From: Chloroflexota bacterium
Lineage (GTDB): Bacteria > Chloroflexota > Anaerolineae > Aggregatilineales > J027
Direction of reading: 5' to 3'
Length of the DNA stretch: 64,000 nucleotides
Assembly: GCA_013112715.1 (NCBI GenBank)
Contig: JABFGB010000005.1
Span: 62,001 to 126,000 of the forward strand
Below, piece by piece: positions 45,621 to 55,771 of the stretch. Position 1 is the first letter of the stretch, and each line of letters starts with the position of its first letter. Made by a program: the position numbers and the translations under genes. The notes under the pieces are model-generated. The model made no database searches, was not told the origin of the DNA, and worked only from the letters and a program-made list of their open reading frames with translations.

Positions 45621-47015
45621 TTATTGGCCTAATATTGTTTTTGCCTCTTTTATCACCTCAATCAAATCAAGATTTTGGCCTTGCTCAATGATTTGCATGT
45701 ACTCGTCGGTTTCTAATTCTCGGCAAATGGAATTAAATAAGCGACGATTGAGATGGATGACATACCGATGCAGAACGCCAGTCCATCGTGCCGCTTGTTC
45801 ATATTCTTGACCGTGCCAGAAAAAATGAACCACGATAAGTAACGTTTTTGCTAAATAGGGTTCGATCCCAAGCTGAAGAGCAAGTTCAATAGCCTCTAGC
45901 GTGGCTTGGCGGGCTGGCTCATGCTGATTTTGCAAAAGGTATAAGTAGGCCCTATATCCTTGCGCCAAGCATACATAATATGGGGCTTTTTTGTCGCGGG
46001 CAAATTCAAGGGCCTCCTCATAACACTTTGCTGCTGCCTCAAAGTTGCCGAGGTGGGTATAAATATTGCCTAGGTCAATCATCCCACTCACCACCAAGTT
46101 TTTCATATTGATCGAGTCGGCAACTTGGATACCCTCTTGATAATGGCGAATGGCCGAATCTAGCTTATCCAGTTCGACTTCACACATCGCCAAACTAAGC
46201 AGGGCGGCAGGCAGCATTCGCATAAACCCAACATTACGGCATATTTGCACGGATCGTTCGGCGTATAGTTCGGCAGTGATAAAATCTCGTAGGGAGACAA
46301 GGCTGTTACTAAGGGTCAGTAGAGCGACACTCAACTCTCCTTCGCGGCCTGTTCCCTCCACGATTGCCAAATATTTGGCAAAATAGTCGTATGCCAATTG
46401 ATAGTCACCGCGAAAATGGGCCACCCGGCCAATCCCCTGATAAACACGACCAATTTCGGCGGTTGCTTGGCATTTTTCAAATAGAACGAGCGCCCTATTT
46501 AGCAAATCTTCAGATTCATCGAACTTACCCTGTTGTTGGGCAACCGACGCCAGCGTGTAGTAGGCTCGCCCTATACTCAAGGTATCTTTGGCCTGCTGAC
46601 TTAAAATCAATAACTCATTGGCAAGCTGTGTGGCTTGTTCGGCCCGCGACGAATAAAAATGGGCCTGTGCAAGATGGTGCAGAATCGTGCGCTGCGCTTC
46701 GGCATTGCCGACCAAAATCGCCGCATCAAGCGCCTGTTGCAGCCACGTTACTCGTTCGGACGGCGTTTGGCGTACTCTCAAAATGTCCATTCCCGCAATC
46801 GAAAACTCTACGCATAACTGAGCTTTGTCTAGCTCATCCGCCGCACTAGCCGACCATGCCTGCCATTGGCGGATTTGACTCCAGTCTTGTTCAATCTGGT
46901 TATACCAATAGGTGCGGTTGCCATGTCCACGCCGAAAGGCCGTATTCGCTTGTTGCAGCCGAGTAACATAATGTTGAGCCAGCCGATATTGAACCATGTC
47001 AACAGAAGATGCCAT
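45621..47015 (-). CDS. TPR-repeat protein, partner of the SARP regulator
   Basis: 464 residues, helical throughout. At least seven tetratricopeptide-like repeats run from about residue 95 to 400, for example AYYTLASVAQQQGKFDESEDLLNRAL, VYQGIGRVAHFRGDYQLAYDYFAKYL and GMIDLGNIYTHLGNFEAAAKCYEEAL. No membrane segment. The start overlaps the SARP stop by one base (TAATG) with GAGGTG upstream. In most regulators of this class the TPR array is the C-terminal part of one chain; here the two together make 1071 residues. Probably the sensory half of a two-subunit regulator. Confidence 0.85.
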   Translation of the reverse strand: MASSVDMVQYRLAQHYVTRLQQANTAFRRGHGNRTYWYNQIEQDWSQIRQWQAWSASAADELDKAQLCVEFSIAGMDILRVRQTPSERVTWLQQALDAAILVGNAEAQRTILHHLAQAHFYSSRAEQATQLANELLILSQQAKDTLSIGRAYYTLASVAQQQGKFDESEDLLNRALVLFEKCQATAEIGRVYQGIGRVAHFRGDYQLAYDYFAKYLAIVEGTGREGELSVALLTLSNSLVSLRDFITAELYAERSVQICRNVGFMRMLPAALLSLAMCEVELDKLDSAIRHYQEGIQVADSINMKNLVVSGMIDLGNIYTHLGNFEAAAKCYEEALEFARDKKAPYYVCLAQGYRAYLYLLQNQHEPARQATLEAIELALQLGIEPYLAKTLLIVVHFFWHGQEYEQAARWTGVLHRYVIHLNRRLFNSICRELETDEYMQIIEQGQNLDLIEVIKEAKTILGQ

Positions 47016-48838
47016 TAGCTCATCACCTCATCTAAAAGTGAGCGTGCATGTAAAACCAAGAGGGCGTGCATTTGGAAGCGTCCCCCACCAACGGGTTCTA
47101 AGAGGCCACGATTGACCAGTGACCTTGCAATCGGTTTCGGGTCGTCTACCTCCCATACAACGGCCATCGCGGGTAAGTCAAAAGTCGCAGGTTTGGCGAC
47201 AAATAATCCCAAATAAGCGAAATACTGGCGGGTTAAGGCATCGAGCGAATCCGTACTACGTTTGAGAAGCGCGGTAATCGTGGGCGACGTATCGGACTTG
47301 TTTCCCAACATATCACTAGGAGCTTGGGCCGTCAGTAAACTGGCCCCCTCTCTTAAATCCGCCAATAACTCACTCACACCCCATCCCAATCGAGACTCGC
47401 TCTGTAACAGACGGCCTGCCACATGAATCGCCAATGGTAGACCTTCGAGGTCACGCACCAGTTGTGTGGCTTCATCAAGTTGGTTTGCAACAGTCTCAGG
47501 AGTAAATTTTGCCAAGAGTTCCAGTGCGGCATGTTCGGCCAAGACGGGTAGGCGATAAATATCGGTGGCAGTCGGGGCAAGAGCAGTCGCTACGCCATTT
47601 AAACGGCTCGTCATCACCAAAGTACAGTTTTTCCCCCCGACCCGAAACGGTTGGGCATGTTCCGCCTGCCAGACATCATCTACAATCAGCAGCATTCGTT
47701 TGTCACGCAGCAGCGCCGTCAATTGGGCACTAATTTCCTCGACGGTGCGGGCTTGGCCGGGTTCGTTTAATCGCAATGCCTCCGCCCAAGCCCCAATCTC
47801 ACTAGCAATACTGGGGTTTTCACCCAATGAGGCCCATAAGACACCATCAGGATAATGATGGCTGAGTTCCAAGTCGTGGGCCAGTGTTGCCACAAGGGTG
47901 CTTTTGCCGACACCCGGCCAGCCTTGAATAACGGTGATTGGGCGTGCTTCTAGGCTGCCCACGCCAAGTCGCTGCTTAATCGCATGGAGCGCGGCATCCC
48001 GGCCCACAAAAAGCGACGGTAAGGGAGGCATCACACCAGAAATCGGCGCACTAATCAAGTCGGTGGATGACACCAGCGTGGGATTACCCTGTTGAATGGC
48101 CTCAAAAAGTCGGGTGGTCTCGCTTTCGGGAGGGGTAGCAAGCTCGCTGTCCAAGATTTCTACACACTGGCGATATTGGCGCAACGCTTCTGATCGCTGA
48201 CCATTCGCAGCATATAAGCGCATCAAGTGGCGATGGGCAGGCTCATGCAGGGTATCAATCTCCAACCACTGCACAGCATGACGAATCGCTTGTTCATACT
48301 GATCCAAGTCAGCATAATAGTGGGACAAGCGACGTTGGACATCCGCATATTCACGACGCAGCCATTCACGTTGGGCTAACTGCCAGTTCTCAAATTCCAA
48401 ATCGTCCGGCAGGTTAAATCCGATCAAAAAATCATCGCCATAGAGTGTTGCAGCTTGTTGATAAAAATCTACACAATCTTTACAAATGCTATCCGAACTG
48501 TGCGGATGGGCGCTGTTCGCGGTGAGCAGTTTTTGGAAAGCAATCACATCAACCCATACCACTTCTCTCTTGAGGCCGATGGTCATACGATCCGCTTGAA
48601 TCCATTCTATATCAACCGCTTTGGTCAGTGCTCGTAGGGCACTTCGCAACGCTGACCGCGCATGATCCTCATCTTGATCCGGCCACAATAAACTGGCGAT
48701 AACCTCGCGGCTCTGCATTTGTTCGGACAACGCAAGATAGGCGATAAGGGCCAAAGCCTTGCGGCGTTCAATTTTGACTGCCATGCCTTGAAATTCGATG
48801 CGTGGGGTTCCTAACAAATACACCCGCAAGTCACTCAT
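47015..48838 (-). CDS. SARP-type transcriptional regulator with BTAD and NB-ARC domains
   Basis: 607 residues. N-terminal OmpR-like winged helix (about 1-100: VYLLGTPRIEFQG, LALIAYLALSEQMQSREVIASLLWPDQDEDHARSALRSALRAL), a bacterial transcriptional activation domain (about 110-255: QYEQAIRHAVQWLEIDTLHEPAHRHLMRLYAANGQRSEALRQYRQCVEIL), then an NB-ARC ATPase with P-loop GWPGVGKST near residue 305, Walker B RMLLIVDDVW and GLPLAIHVAGRLL. It stops where the TPR gene begins. Likely an NTP-switched activator that binds the heptamer repeats at 48852-48880 and 51732-51749. GAGG lies close before the start. Confidence 0.92.
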   Translation of the reverse strand: MSDLRVYLLGTPRIEFQGMAVKIERRKALALIAYLALSEQMQSREVIASLLWPDQDEDHARSALRSALRALTKAVDIEWIQADRMTIGLKREVVWVDVIAFQKLLTANSAHPHSSDSICKDCVDFYQQAATLYGDDFLIGFNLPDDLEFENWQLAQREWLRREYADVQRRLSHYYADLDQYEQAIRHAVQWLEIDTLHEPAHRHLMRLYAANGQRSEALRQYRQCVEILDSELATPPESETTRLFEAIQQGNPTLVSSTDLISAPISGVMPPLPSLFVGRDAALHAIKQRLGVGSLEARPITVIQGWPGVGKSTLVATLAHDLELSHHYPDGVLWASLGENPSIASEIGAWAEALRLNEPGQARTVEEISAQLTALLRDKRMLLIVDDVWQAEHAQPFRVGGKNCTLVMTSRLNGVATALAPTATDIYRLPVLAEHAALELLAKFTPETVANQLDEATQLVRDLEGLPLAIHVAGRLLQSESRLGWGVSELLADLREGASLLTAQAPSDMLGNKSDTSPTITALLKRSTDSLDALTRQYFAYLGLFVAKPATFDLPAMAVVWEVDDPKPIARSLVNRGLLEPVGGGRFQMHALLVLHARSLLDEVMS

Positions 48839-48851
48839 TGGCCTCGTCCCC

Positions 48852-48896
48852 CTGTCACGATTCTGTCACCAAGCTGTCGCGCAGCTTCCCTATACT
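48852..48896 (+). promoter_or_regulatory. SARP-type activator site and promoter of the beta-propeller gene
   Basis: Three heptamers CTGTCAC (48852), CTGTCAC (48863) and CTGTCGC (48874) repeat exactly every 11 bases; 10 bases after the last is the -10 box TATACT (48891-48896). No -35 box, as expected for SARP-activated promoters. The repeats lie 14 bases from the SARP start codon, so its own transcription may also be affected. Confidence 0.75.
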
Positions 48897-48902
48897 GACC
48901 GT

Positions 48903-49092
48903 CAATCAAGCAATGCTTGGGGTGTGTCGGTCAGCAATGTTTCCACCCATTGTAGTGGAATTTGCAGTACCACGTTTCCTATCAACGATATTGCACATGG
49001 CAATGACCCTGTAATCGTTGGACAGCCGTACTGGATAGGCTCCATTGCTGACAATGGCACATTTCGTTGGATCAAAGGGTTGGGAGAATATC
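48903..49092 (+). other. Long structured 5' leader of the beta-propeller gene
   Basis: About 190 nt separate the predicted start from the ATG. Near its 5' end lies a nested hairpin: CTGACCG/CGGTCAG (48895-48901 with 48928-48934) around CAAGC/GCTTG; then TTCCAC/GTGGAA and CATTG/CAATG stems. No known riboswitch class recognised. Confidence 0.45.
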
Positions 49093-51682: not shown

Positions 51683-51718
51683 AAAAAGGTCGGGTTACGA
51701 AATCCGGCCTTTTTGTTT
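51683..51718 (+). terminator. Terminator of the beta-propeller gene
   Basis: A 12-bp stem AAAAAGGTCGGG/TCCGGCCTTTTT with two G-T pairs and a TTTTTGTTT tail, 34 bases after the stop codon. Confidence 0.9.
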
Positions 51719-51731
51719 AGGCGTCATATGA

Positions 51732-51765
51732 TTGTCACGTTTTTGTCGCGCAGTTTTTTTATACT
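51732..51765 (+). promoter_or_regulatory. Second SARP-type activator site and promoter, no gene in front
   Basis: TTGTCAC (51732) and TTGTCGC (51743) are 11 bases apart, with a degenerate third copy GCGTCAT at 51721. Exactly 10 bases after the last is TATACT (51760-51765) followed by GACC, as at 48891. The block from TGTCGCGCAG to TATACTGACC is nearly identical at both sites. Confidence 0.75.
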
Positions 51766-51771
51766 GACCTC

Positions 51772-51853
51772 TGTCTCGATCATCTTGCACTTGTATTGTC
51801 TCAACCCTTCTCATCCGCTCCCATTTTTGCAGGGGTTGAGACATACCTTTTTT
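51772..51853 (+). ncRNA. Candidate SARP-controlled small RNA
   Basis: Predicted transcript of about 82 nt from the promoter at 51760-51765 to a strong terminator: stem TGTCTCAACCC/GGGTTGAGACA (51797-51807 with 51833-51843), extended by GTA/TAC across a bulge, then a T6 run (51848-51853). The 25-nt terminator loop is C/T-rich and holds CCGCTCCC, complementary to GGGAG ribosome binding sites. No reading frame with a ribosome binding site fits. It is convergent with, and ends six bases from, the stop codon of the ABC ATPase gene. Transcription is predicted, not shown. Confidence 0.55.
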
Positions 51854-51858
51854 GAGAA

Positions 51859-52740
51859 TTAGCCCAATTCCCTGTTCCGTGTTTGACTCATCAGATGGAT
51901 ATAACCATCTTCCAAACTTGGCTCGGTAGATATGGCGTTCGGAAAAGCCCCTGCGTCCCCGATCACCCGGTACTGCGTCCCTTGCGCCAACTGAAGTGTG
52001 GAAACCACTTTTAGACCGTGATTCGGGCGCTCCCCATCCGTCACAATGTTCCAGACCTGACCGCGTGTTTTTTGGATTAACTCATTGGGCGCACCCCGAA
52101 ACAACACGGTTCCGCTATACATGACGGCTAGATCACGGCAACTTTGGCTGATGTCTTCAATGATATGGGTCGAAAGAATCACCGTTGCATTTTCGGCCAG
52201 TTCCGAAAACAGGTTTCGCAACCGTACTCGTTCTTCAGGGTCAAGCCCTGCGGTTGGCTCGTCCACAATGATAAGTCGGGGGTTGCCAATGAGTGCTTGA
52301 GCGATGCCAATACGCCGTTTCATGCCGCCGGAATAAGTTTTTAGTCTACGGTCTGCTACCTCGGTCAAATGTACCTTTTCTAAGGCTTCGTGTACTTGCT
52401 GTTTGCGCTGCTGACGATTGGTAACGCCCTTCAGAATGGCGACATAATCTAAAAACTCGACCCCTGTCAGATGAGGATAGAGACCAAGTTCTTGCGGCAG
52501 ATACCCTAATATAGCTTTGGTGGCTTGTTTACCTTTTAGGGTGTGCATATCGTGTCCATTGATTTCGACCCGACCAGTCGTCCAATGCAGCAGTCCGGCG
52601 ATAATTCTCATCAGGCTGGTTTTGCCCGCGCCATTTGGCCCTACCAATCCAAACATCCCAGTCCCGATTTCAAGCGAAATATCATTCAGCGCTGTAATAT
52701 CACCTTTATAGATTTTGGTGAGGTGTTCAATCTTAATCAT
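51859..52740 (-). CDS. ABC-2 type transporter ATP-binding protein
   Basis: 293 residues. Walker A GPNGAGKTSLM, Q-loop GYLPQELGLYPHLT, signature TYSGGMKRRIGIAQAL, Walker B RLIIVDEPTAGLDPEER and H-loop ILSTHIIED. The C-terminal 70 residues (RGQVWNIVTDGE...) are an accessory domain common in exporters of this type. Last gene of the sigma-ABC operon, 10 bases after a permease gene. Substrate unknown; drug, peptide or lipid export is usual for the family. Confidence 0.93.
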   Translation of the reverse strand: MIKIEHLTKIYKGDITALNDISLEIGTGMFGLVGPNGAGKTSLMRIIAGLLHWTTGRVEINGHDMHTLKGKQATKAILGYLPQELGLYPHLTGVEFLDYVAILKGVTNRQQRKQQVHEALEKVHLTEVADRRLKTYSGGMKRRIGIAQALIGNPRLIIVDEPTAGLDPEERVRLRNLFSELAENATVILSTHIIEDISQSCRDLAVMYSGTVLFRGAPNELIQKTRGQVWNIVTDGERPNHGLKVVSTLQLAQGTQYRVIGDAGAFPNAISTEPSLEDGYIHLMSQTRNRELG

Positions 52741-54384: not shown

Positions 54385-55226
54385 GCGGTTGTCCTTAATT
54401 CCCGGTCAGATTTCTCTAGGAACAAAAATGTTGTCAATACCGCCAATACCGCTGCTATCAAGAGAAAGGGGCGGGTACTTTCGTCACGCAGGCCGGGCAG
54501 CGACAGTGCATAAACAAGCGTATGGTCAGGGGTCGCTTGAGTGAGAAAAACATGCAGACTCCACATAAGTAAGGACACGGCGATACTGAACGTTGTACTG
54601 CGTAAGACGACACTCATCAAAAAAGCCACCGACGACAAGAAGGTCATAGGTAGGAGCCAAGCCAGAATCAGTGGGCCAAGTGAGATTTCAGCCCTTGCAA
54701 GGGTCAAGATAATACTGCAACCCAAAGTCATAATCAGATTGAAGCTGAAGATCAGCATCAGGCGGGCCAACAAAATTCGAAGGACACCTGTTGGGGTGGC
54801 ATCCTCAATCTCAAGCTGGATTTCGTATTCCGCATCATAAAGCAGACCTACCCCCACCGCCGCCATAATCGGGGCAAGGATCACCAGAGGGGCAAAAGTA
54901 TCGGTGTCGGGCCGATAGGATACTAAAGTGACAAATGTGCCGATTAAGATGACCAGAGCCGAGGCTGCCCATAACTCCTTGCGAATGATCCGTAGTTGAC
55001 CCCGTAAAATAAGCCACATCCAGCGCAAATTGAGTCGTTGACCGCCACCAATGGTCTGCCCTTCAACTGAAAGCCGCCTGAGCAGTGCTTGAATTTCAGC
55101 ATTGGATGTTGTGGGGTTAGGCCATTGTCTAAGGGCTTGGATAGGCCTGATAAGGGCATCTGCCGTATCATCTGAACCAGTATCCTCAACCAACATATCT
55201 CGCAGACGCTTAGGATCGTCGGTCAT
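54381..55226 (-). CDS. Membrane protein between sigma and ABC genes; possible anti-sigma factor or exporter subunit
   Basis: 281 residues. A soluble N-terminal part of about 85 residues (MTDDPKRLRDMLVEDTGSDD..., then SNAEIQALLRRLSVEG) is followed by about six helices. No zinc-binding His/Cys motif is visible. Its gene overlaps the sigma gene by four bases, the usual place of an anti-sigma factor, but the polytopic half (DAEYEIQLEIEDATPTGVLRILLARLML) resembles an ABC-2 permease and may belong to the exporter. Both roles could be combined. Confidence 0.6.
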   Translation of the reverse strand: MTDDPKRLRDMLVEDTGSDDTADALIRPIQALRQWPNPTTSNAEIQALLRRLSVEGQTIGGGQRLNLRWMWLILRGQLRIIRKELWAASALVILIGTFVTLVSYRPDTDTFAPLVILAPIMAAVGVGLLYDAEYEIQLEIEDATPTGVLRILLARLMLIFSFNLIMTLGCSIILTLARAEISLGPLILAWLLPMTFLSSVAFLMSVVLRSTTFSIAVSLLMWSLHVFLTQATPDHTLVYALSLPGLRDESTRPFLLIAAVLAVLTTFLFLEKSDRELRTTA

Positions 55227-55771
55227 GCTGATTCCTCCATTAATTCACGCAGTCGCCGAAGGCCTATGCTTAACCTTGATTTGACCGTGCCCTCTGGAAT
55301 TTTTAGGCTTTCCGCGATCTCGGCCAATGGCATTTCCTCGTAATAGCGCAAGAGAATGACCTCGCGCTGATGTAAGGGCAATTTGGCAAGGGCTTGGATG
55401 ACCTGCTGGGTTTCCTCATGGGTAGTCAACTGCGTTTCTGGCAATGGTTCAATATCCCTTAGGTTATGCCAGTCCATTTCCGATGCCGTAATCGTATGGC
55501 GAGTGTCGGCTTGTTCAAAATGCTGCCGGACAAGATTGGTGGCTATCGCATAAAGCCATGCTTTAAAGGGGCGTGGGTATTGATATTGATGAATGTTCCC
55601 AAGTGCCCGCAGAAACGTTTCTTGCGCCATGTCCTCACTCAATAACAAATTCCCATTGGTCATACGATAGAGATAGCCTTTCAATGGGCTATAATGCCGC
55701 TCCACCAACAGTGCCAAATGGGGAATACACCCTTGTTGAATTCCTTGTGCCAGTGCTTCGTCGGTCTGCAA
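55223..55771 (-). CDS. ECF-type RNA polymerase sigma factor
   Basis: 182 residues, TTG start at 55771 with GGAG 10 nt upstream. Region 2: LVERHYSPLKGYLYRMTNGNLLLSEDMAQETFLRAL. Region 4: LPLHQREVILLRYYEEMPLAEIAESLKIPEGTVKSRLSIGLRRL, a complete HTH. First gene of a five-gene run joined by ATGA overlaps, so it probably controls the exporter in response to envelope stress or a toxic compound. A candidate self-promoter with GAACC (about 55829-55833) and CGATA (about 55810-55814) lies upstream but is weak. Confidence 0.92.
   Translation of the reverse strand: MQTDEALAQGIQQGCIPHLALLVERHYSPLKGYLYRMTNGNLLLSEDMAQETFLRALGNIHQYQYPRPFKAWLYAIATNLVRQHFEQADTRHTITASEMDWHNLRDIEPLPETQLTTHEETQQVIQALAKLPLHQREVILLRYYEEMPLAEIAESLKIPEGTVKSRLSIGLRRLRELMEESA

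Follow-up and report, generated by a model that had tools for sequence, protein, structure and literature searches.

A predicted small RNA gene behind a SARP-type promoter in an uncultured Chloroflexota bacterium

Described systems and the locus under study

SARPs, much-studied activators of antibiotic clusters, have been described as regulators of protein genes. One described system is AfsR-afsS of Streptomyces coelicolor, in which a large SARP activates a small adjacent gene. SARP promoters carry 11-bp repeats, the last of which lies ~8 bp from the −10 box, together with a weak −35 (PMC10936776), and the promoters described below agree with known ones of this class in the repeats, the spacing and the poor −35 (PMC10936776; PMC10972967). 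Activator-controlled small RNAs are documented in Listeria monocytogenes, where the multicopy LhrC RNAs are controlled by LisR and have three C-rich sites and tested targets (PMC4132741); Rli51 is a terminated 5'-leader RNA that also acts in trans (PMC11394854). In our search of the literature on SARP or AfsR with small RNA, none of the titles or abstracts listed described SARP control of such an RNA, and no dedicated small-RNA study in Chloroflexota was listed.

The locus presented here belongs to an uncultured Chloroflexota (Anaerolineae) bacterium with a genome of 5.55 Mb (G000), and the window is the whole stretch of 64,000 nucleotides that was analysed. Our genus sample comprised five genomes of as many species, the relatives being Anaerolineae or Chloroflexi metagenome bins; G000, G001, G003 and G004 carry the SARP cassette, while G002 does not. 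Two promoters of the same type lie in the cassette, P1 before a beta-propeller gene and P2 behind it (Table 1). The explanation that we favour, with moderate confidence, is that P2 belongs to a SARP-activated, self-terminated small RNA gene kept by selection.

Table 1. Features of the cassette, in positions of the window
Feature	Position	Strand	Remarks
TPR protein	45621..47015	-	TPR repeats
AfsR-like SARP (putative DNA-binding region, BTAD, NB-ARC)	47015..48838	-	putative activator of P1 and P2
P1, sister promoter of the propeller gene	48853..48896	+	three TGTCRC repeats, 11-bp period, 10 bp, TATACT
Candidate target site AAGGGTTGGGA	49075..49085	+	overlaps the propeller Shine-Dalgarno sequence
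Beta-propeller protein (PD40 repeats), 851 aa	49093..51648	+	hydrophobic N-terminus
Bidirectional terminator AAAAAGG..CCTTTTT	51683..51714		lies where the propeller and ABC genes converge
P2, SARP-type promoter	51732..51765	+	repeats TTGTCACG / TTGTCGCG 11 bp apart, 10 bp, TATACT
Predicted small RNA, ~82 nt	51772..51853	+	start placed from the −10 box
5' segment	51772..51789	+	alternative helix with 51828-51843 would free the seed; all cells paired in four species
Terminator hairpin	51793..51846	+	arms 51797-51809 / 51831-51843
Candidate seed UCUCAACCCUU	51799..51809	+	complementary to 49075-49085
T6 run	51848..51853	+	conservation ends here; flanking DNA different in G003

Regulator, promoters and predicted RNA

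The SARP gene adjoins P1 and is divergent from the propeller gene. Its product contains BTAD (2.5e-20) and NB-ARC (6.8e-24) domains according to Pfam and aligned to AfsR over residues 5–602 (E 2e-22); as to an N-terminal DNA-binding domain of the OmpR type, the AfsR alignment begins at residue 5, and Trans_reg_C was not among the 25 Pfam families listed. A C-terminal TPR domain is missing from this ORF, and the TPR repeats occur in the adjoining one, which is probably the separated TPR part of an AfsR-type regulator. The propeller protein is probably exported, as judged from its hydrophobic N-terminus, and belongs to a family that is expanded in the genus, each genome having some 20 to 30 matches. 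In the ~190-nt leader that separates P1 from the propeller start (48897-49080), 5–9% of the sites differ between species; third codon positions change more, and a short frame or a structured element may lie within the leader. The ABC transporter operon, which converges on the small RNA, has an ECF sigma factor gene (55223-55771) upstream. A SARP paralogue with 57% identity was observed in G002 (contig C18, locus L054, minus strand, ~7500-100) beside genes that include propeller paralogues; several of the genes near it are preceded by TGTGACG-type repeats with an 11-bp period, and it is a related regulator whose recognition sequence apparently differs.

According to the initial annotation, two TGTCRC heptamers spaced 11 bases lie 10 bases before TATACT. 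The arrangement is indeed present at 51733-51765, though the repeats are hexamers or, counted as TTGTCRCG, octamers. In P2, TGTCAC (51733-51738) and TGTCGC (51744-51749) are separated by 5 nt, and the −10 box (51760-51765) follows the second repeat after 10 nt, or 9–10 bp depending on the repeat definition, placing the predicted start at ~51772; a recognisable −35 was not found by promoter scan. Direct repeats at the 11-bp (or 22-bp) period of SARP promoters occur both in P2, with two copies, and in P1, with three, and P2 likewise conforms to the class in its poor −35 and in the short distance from the last repeat to the −10 box, ~8 bp in published promoters. A search of the whole 5.55-Mb genome with the pattern TGTCRC-N5-TGTCRC-N10-TATACT, allowing up to two mismatches, returned only P1, located between the divergent SARP and propeller genes, and P2, each without a mismatch; the reversed control pattern gave two matches. 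All matches in the genus were perfect, and none occurred in G002, the one congener without a SARP orthologue, so that SARP and promoter co-occur in four of the five species. The repeats and the −10 box of P2 are intact in those four, and P1 shows no change at any of its 46 sites. These findings support the assignment of P2 as a SARP-type promoter whose architecture resembles that of P1 next to the AfsR-like SARP gene, and we infer that the SARP binds at both and that transcription starts from P2. The cassette looks genome-unique, with two promoters, and for this reason the whole regulon could be tested in a heterologous host.

TGTCRC pairs also occur on contigs C2 and C10 of G000; these have no −10 box and were rejected as P2-like promoters. 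In a scan of public genomes, a plausible start codon usually stood behind the promoter pattern in other Chloroflexota and in Bipolaricaulota, which is not the case for P2. Near-identical SARP-type promoters, TTGTCACG-N3-TTGTCACGCTC..TTATACT, were also seen in Candidatus Bipolaricaulota (L087, L099, L100, L108 and L139), a phylum in which a SARP-like regulon seems unexplored.

No gene starts on the same strand between P2 and the convergent ABC gene, whose stop codon occupies 51859-51861, in agreement with the earlier reading that no protein gene stands behind this promoter. A terminator with T6, which had been placed about 80 nt downstream, was also recovered: its stem of 13 bp, including one G-U, is extended by 3 bp across a 1-nt bulge (GTA 51793-51795 with TAC 51844-51846) and closes a loop of 21 nt (51810-51830). 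Intrinsic terminators usually have shorter loops, which counts against this assignment. The RNA from 51772 to 51853 folded with −21.2 kcal/mol (z −3.9), a value reached by none of 200 shuffles. A simple promoter and terminator scan misses both P2 and the hairpin, because it accepts no promoter that lacks a −35 box and no loop longer than 8 nt. The T-run acts for the plus strand only, and the hairpin would be dispensable for the propeller and ABC genes, since these have a separate bidirectional terminator.

Neither ATG nor GTG occurs in the predicted RNA, nor does any start codon with a ribosome site. A small peptide was consequently rejected, the reading frames being broken between species by an indel in the loop; the one long TTG frame of the G000 RNA is without a ribosome site and is altered by that indel in G003 and G001. 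A multicopy element or repeat was discarded as well, as the sequence is present once per genome, and Rfam gave no match at gathering score. The unit therefore combines features of an independent small RNA gene, namely a promoter and a terminator of its own and the lack of a reading frame, all of them predicted, with conservation above that of its neutral neighbours. The initial proposal of an orphan SARP-type promoter feeding a terminated RNA of ~82 nt was thus upheld as a prediction, the promoter matching P1 and the unit being conserved in relatives.

Conservation and history of the unit

The SARP gene, P1, the propeller gene, P2 and the hairpin are kept in this order in four of the five genomes of the genus, whereas in G002 the ABC operon adjoins other genes and the cassette is absent. 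The covariance search that had been named at the outset as a check gave a model scoring 117–121 bits in these four genomes, its next best score among 154 genomes of the order being 24 bits; promoter and hairpin were found in four of five species, and the matches outside the genus (21–24 bits, E 0.09–0.2) were dismissed as chance level. Site variability was counted in G000, G001 and G004, the three genomes in which no gene follows P2. Only 5 of 81 sites in the RNA and 3 of 40 in P2 varied, compared with 387 of 884 fourfold-degenerate sites (44%), 38 of 100 such sites in the flanking 300 nt at either end and 15 of 37 sites in the neighbouring spacer. The difference was significant for the RNA and the promoter alike, both against fourfold sites (binomial, 4e-14 and 5e-7, respectively) and against the spacer (Fisher, 1e-5 and 9e-4). 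Across the four species 98% of the hairpin cells are paired, although with four copies from one genus and an almost invariant stem covariation is not readable and compensatory changes are not shown. Since the loop (2 of 23 sites variable) and the single-stranded 5' segment (2 of 22) are also constrained, selection does not act on the stem alone.

The promoter pattern, the hairpin, the missing gene and the conservation are visible directly in the DNA; it is probably the RNA rather than the DNA that selection keeps. The opposite might be argued from the repeats and −10 box of P2, which are nearly invariant, and from the presence of just two such sites in the genome: P2 could titrate or store the SARP, with the terminator merely preventing read-through into the ABC genes. 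We regard this as improbable, given that a decoy has no need of a −10 box and that the constraint on the loop and the 5' segment would be left unexplained.

The conserved unit stops at the T-run, even though the DNA behind it is different in G003. In G000, G001 and G004 the T-run meets the 3' end of the ABC gene at an identical place, while in G003 it meets a frameshifted 3' fragment of a propeller gene, followed by another propeller gene. This boundary bears on a possible role against the ABC operon, by cis antisense RNA or by transcriptional interference at its 3' end, such that SARP activity would lower transporter expression. On the strand opposite to the ABC gene, the RNA immediately adjoins the stop codon of that gene, and an ABC transcript reaching the terminator at 51683-51714 would cover it completely; nevertheless, the unit is equally conserved in G003 despite ~2.5 kb of propeller DNA between the RNA and the ABC gene, and the RNA ends short of the ABC coding region, which leaves this reading with a low probability, marginally above that of SARP titration. 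Propeller DNA in the same direction downstream of the unit in G003 could also point to an attenuator leader acting on propeller genes by regulated read-through. That DNA, however, opens with a broken 3' fragment, and the other three species have nothing on the plus strand downstream to regulate, so we consider an attenuator very improbable and the least credible of the readings weighed here.

The main rival to a small RNA gene kept by selection is that P2 and the hairpin are remnants of a lost SARP-controlled propeller gene, namely its promoter and its 5' leader; the leader hairpin would now end transcription, and the RNA would be a relic or a later co-option. Propeller paralogues stand in tandem, two of them with a SARP promoter of their own, and contig C208 of G003 holds two intact propeller genes with SARP promoters in whose leaders the same promoter is followed, at equal distance, by CCTTGCAC and a 10–11-bp hairpin, at the position of that of the small RNA; the frameshifted fragment directly behind the T-run in G003 fits the same history. 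A pure relic should nonetheless drift, and the RNA varies at 6% of its sites as against ~40%. Moreover, the SARP and ABC genes group G003 with G001 as sisters, and this, together with the junction common to G000, G001 and G004, indicates as the simplest history that the orphan unit is probably ancestral and the propeller debris of G003 a later insertion, the reverse order being less probable. The covariance model, finally, misses the C208 leaders. On balance, we judge the loss of a propeller gene unlikely, yet the most serious of the alternatives.

The C208 leaders can be aligned to the small RNA with p 0.002–0.08, and from this weak sequence similarity and the matching hairpin position a propeller-leader origin of the small RNA appears plausible. 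In these tandem paralogues (L069, minus strand, 8362-8228 and 2788-2655) the leader hairpins lie directly before the ribosome site, and the two differ by pair-preserving changes (U-A/U-G and G-U/G-C). The C208 alignment had suggested that in G003 the hairpin is followed by a ribosome site and a start codon; this was rejected, as the stretch in question reads as the propeller 3' fragment.

Candidate target and comparison with known systems

The initial annotation had further proposed that the loop sequence CCGCTCCC could pair with the ribosome binding sites of the propeller and alpha-2-macroglobulin genes. Rankings over 44 gene starts of the window did not single these out: in a duplex ranking of the loop alone the propeller fell outside the top 12 and alpha-2-macroglobulin ranked 12th, and with accessibility the latter ranked 40th. 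The loop does contain GCUCCCA, conserved in four species, with an unpaired UCCC motif of the C-rich class (RNAIII, RsaE and LhrC type), and among the 8-mers of the RNA UCCCAUUU has the highest accessibility. Target prediction, suggested in the same annotation, retained the propeller ribosome site but shifted the pairing from the loop to the 5' arm of the stem, where UCUCAACCCUU can form 11 bp, one of them G-U, with AAGGGUUGGGA (−15.7 kcal/mol). With accessibility included, this pairing is second best among the 44 gene starts of the window, and of ~150 other gene starts from the genus one unrelated gene, on another contig, surpasses it; the shuffle p is ~0.02, so that the statistics are modest. 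It is identical in three species and has 10 bp in G001. In a genome-wide pattern scan, AGGGTTGRGA occurred before ATG at about the control rate, which counts against the pairing, although the propeller is the only place with AGGGTTGRGA-N-ATG that recurs in all four SARP-bearing genomes.

Also against the pairing, the arm is itself paired in the stable fold with a probability of 0.999. It might be released if the 3' arm instead formed a helix with the first 18 nt; all 16 pairs of this helix are kept in four species, two variable ones as G-U. The release would cost ~4.5 kcal/mol in G000, and the statistical support for the helix is weak (p 0.01 in G000 and 0.18 in G003). In the explanation that we favour, the neighbouring AfsR-like SARP would activate both the propeller gene from P1 and the small RNA from P2. 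RNA polymerase would start near 51772 and stop at the hairpin and T6, freeing an RNA of ~82 nt. The most likely mechanism beyond this, held with low confidence, is that the 5' arm invades the Shine-Dalgarno region of the propeller mRNA, which the SARP co-activates, and that the 3' arm meanwhile pairs anew with the 5' end of the small RNA. The SARP would thereby switch on an mRNA plus a brake on its translation, that is, an incoherent feed-forward loop. Such a loop operating through the arm-propeller pairing remains a tentative and rather doubtful proposal.

The fullest version of this scheme is a two-promoter SARP regulon comprising the mRNA of an exported propeller and a bistable small RNA, with a 3' arm that swaps between two 5' partners and a seed masking the ribosome site of the propeller. 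It would form a self-contained incoherent feed-forward cassette that is acquired or lost whole and that probably derived from a propeller leader. We hold this version to be unlikely, and somewhat more so than the lost-gene history; if true, this would be the first SARP regulon to include a small RNA, and one outside Actinobacteria. Independently of the target, the sequences suggest that activators of the SARP class probably turn on a small regulatory RNA as well, and a SARP promoter with a conserved terminated RNA as its sole product would, if true, widen what SARPs control. The locus likewise offers a compact small-RNA test case in Chloroflexota.

Compared with AfsR-afsS, the regulator is an AfsR-like SARP with BTAD and NB-ARC, and the 11-bp direct repeats stand just upstream of the −10 box. 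The TPR part, however, is in a separate ORF, the repeats are TTGTCRCG and not the afs box, and afsS is a small protein gene, whereas the unit described here is without a start codon and ribosome site and is terminated after ~80 nt. Rli51 shares with it the combination of promoter, hairpin and premature terminator predicted to give a short RNA, and related propeller genes have a similar leader hairpin, but in three of the four species the gene is absent downstream. The resemblance to LhrC lies in a short RNA, predicted here to be terminated, under one activator, with UCCC in the terminator loop and a cell-surface or exported protein as proposed target; it differs from LhrC in being single copy and in that the better predicted site is the stem arm instead of the UCCC loop. 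By analogy, this small RNA would work in the manner of activator-controlled small RNAs such as LhrC.
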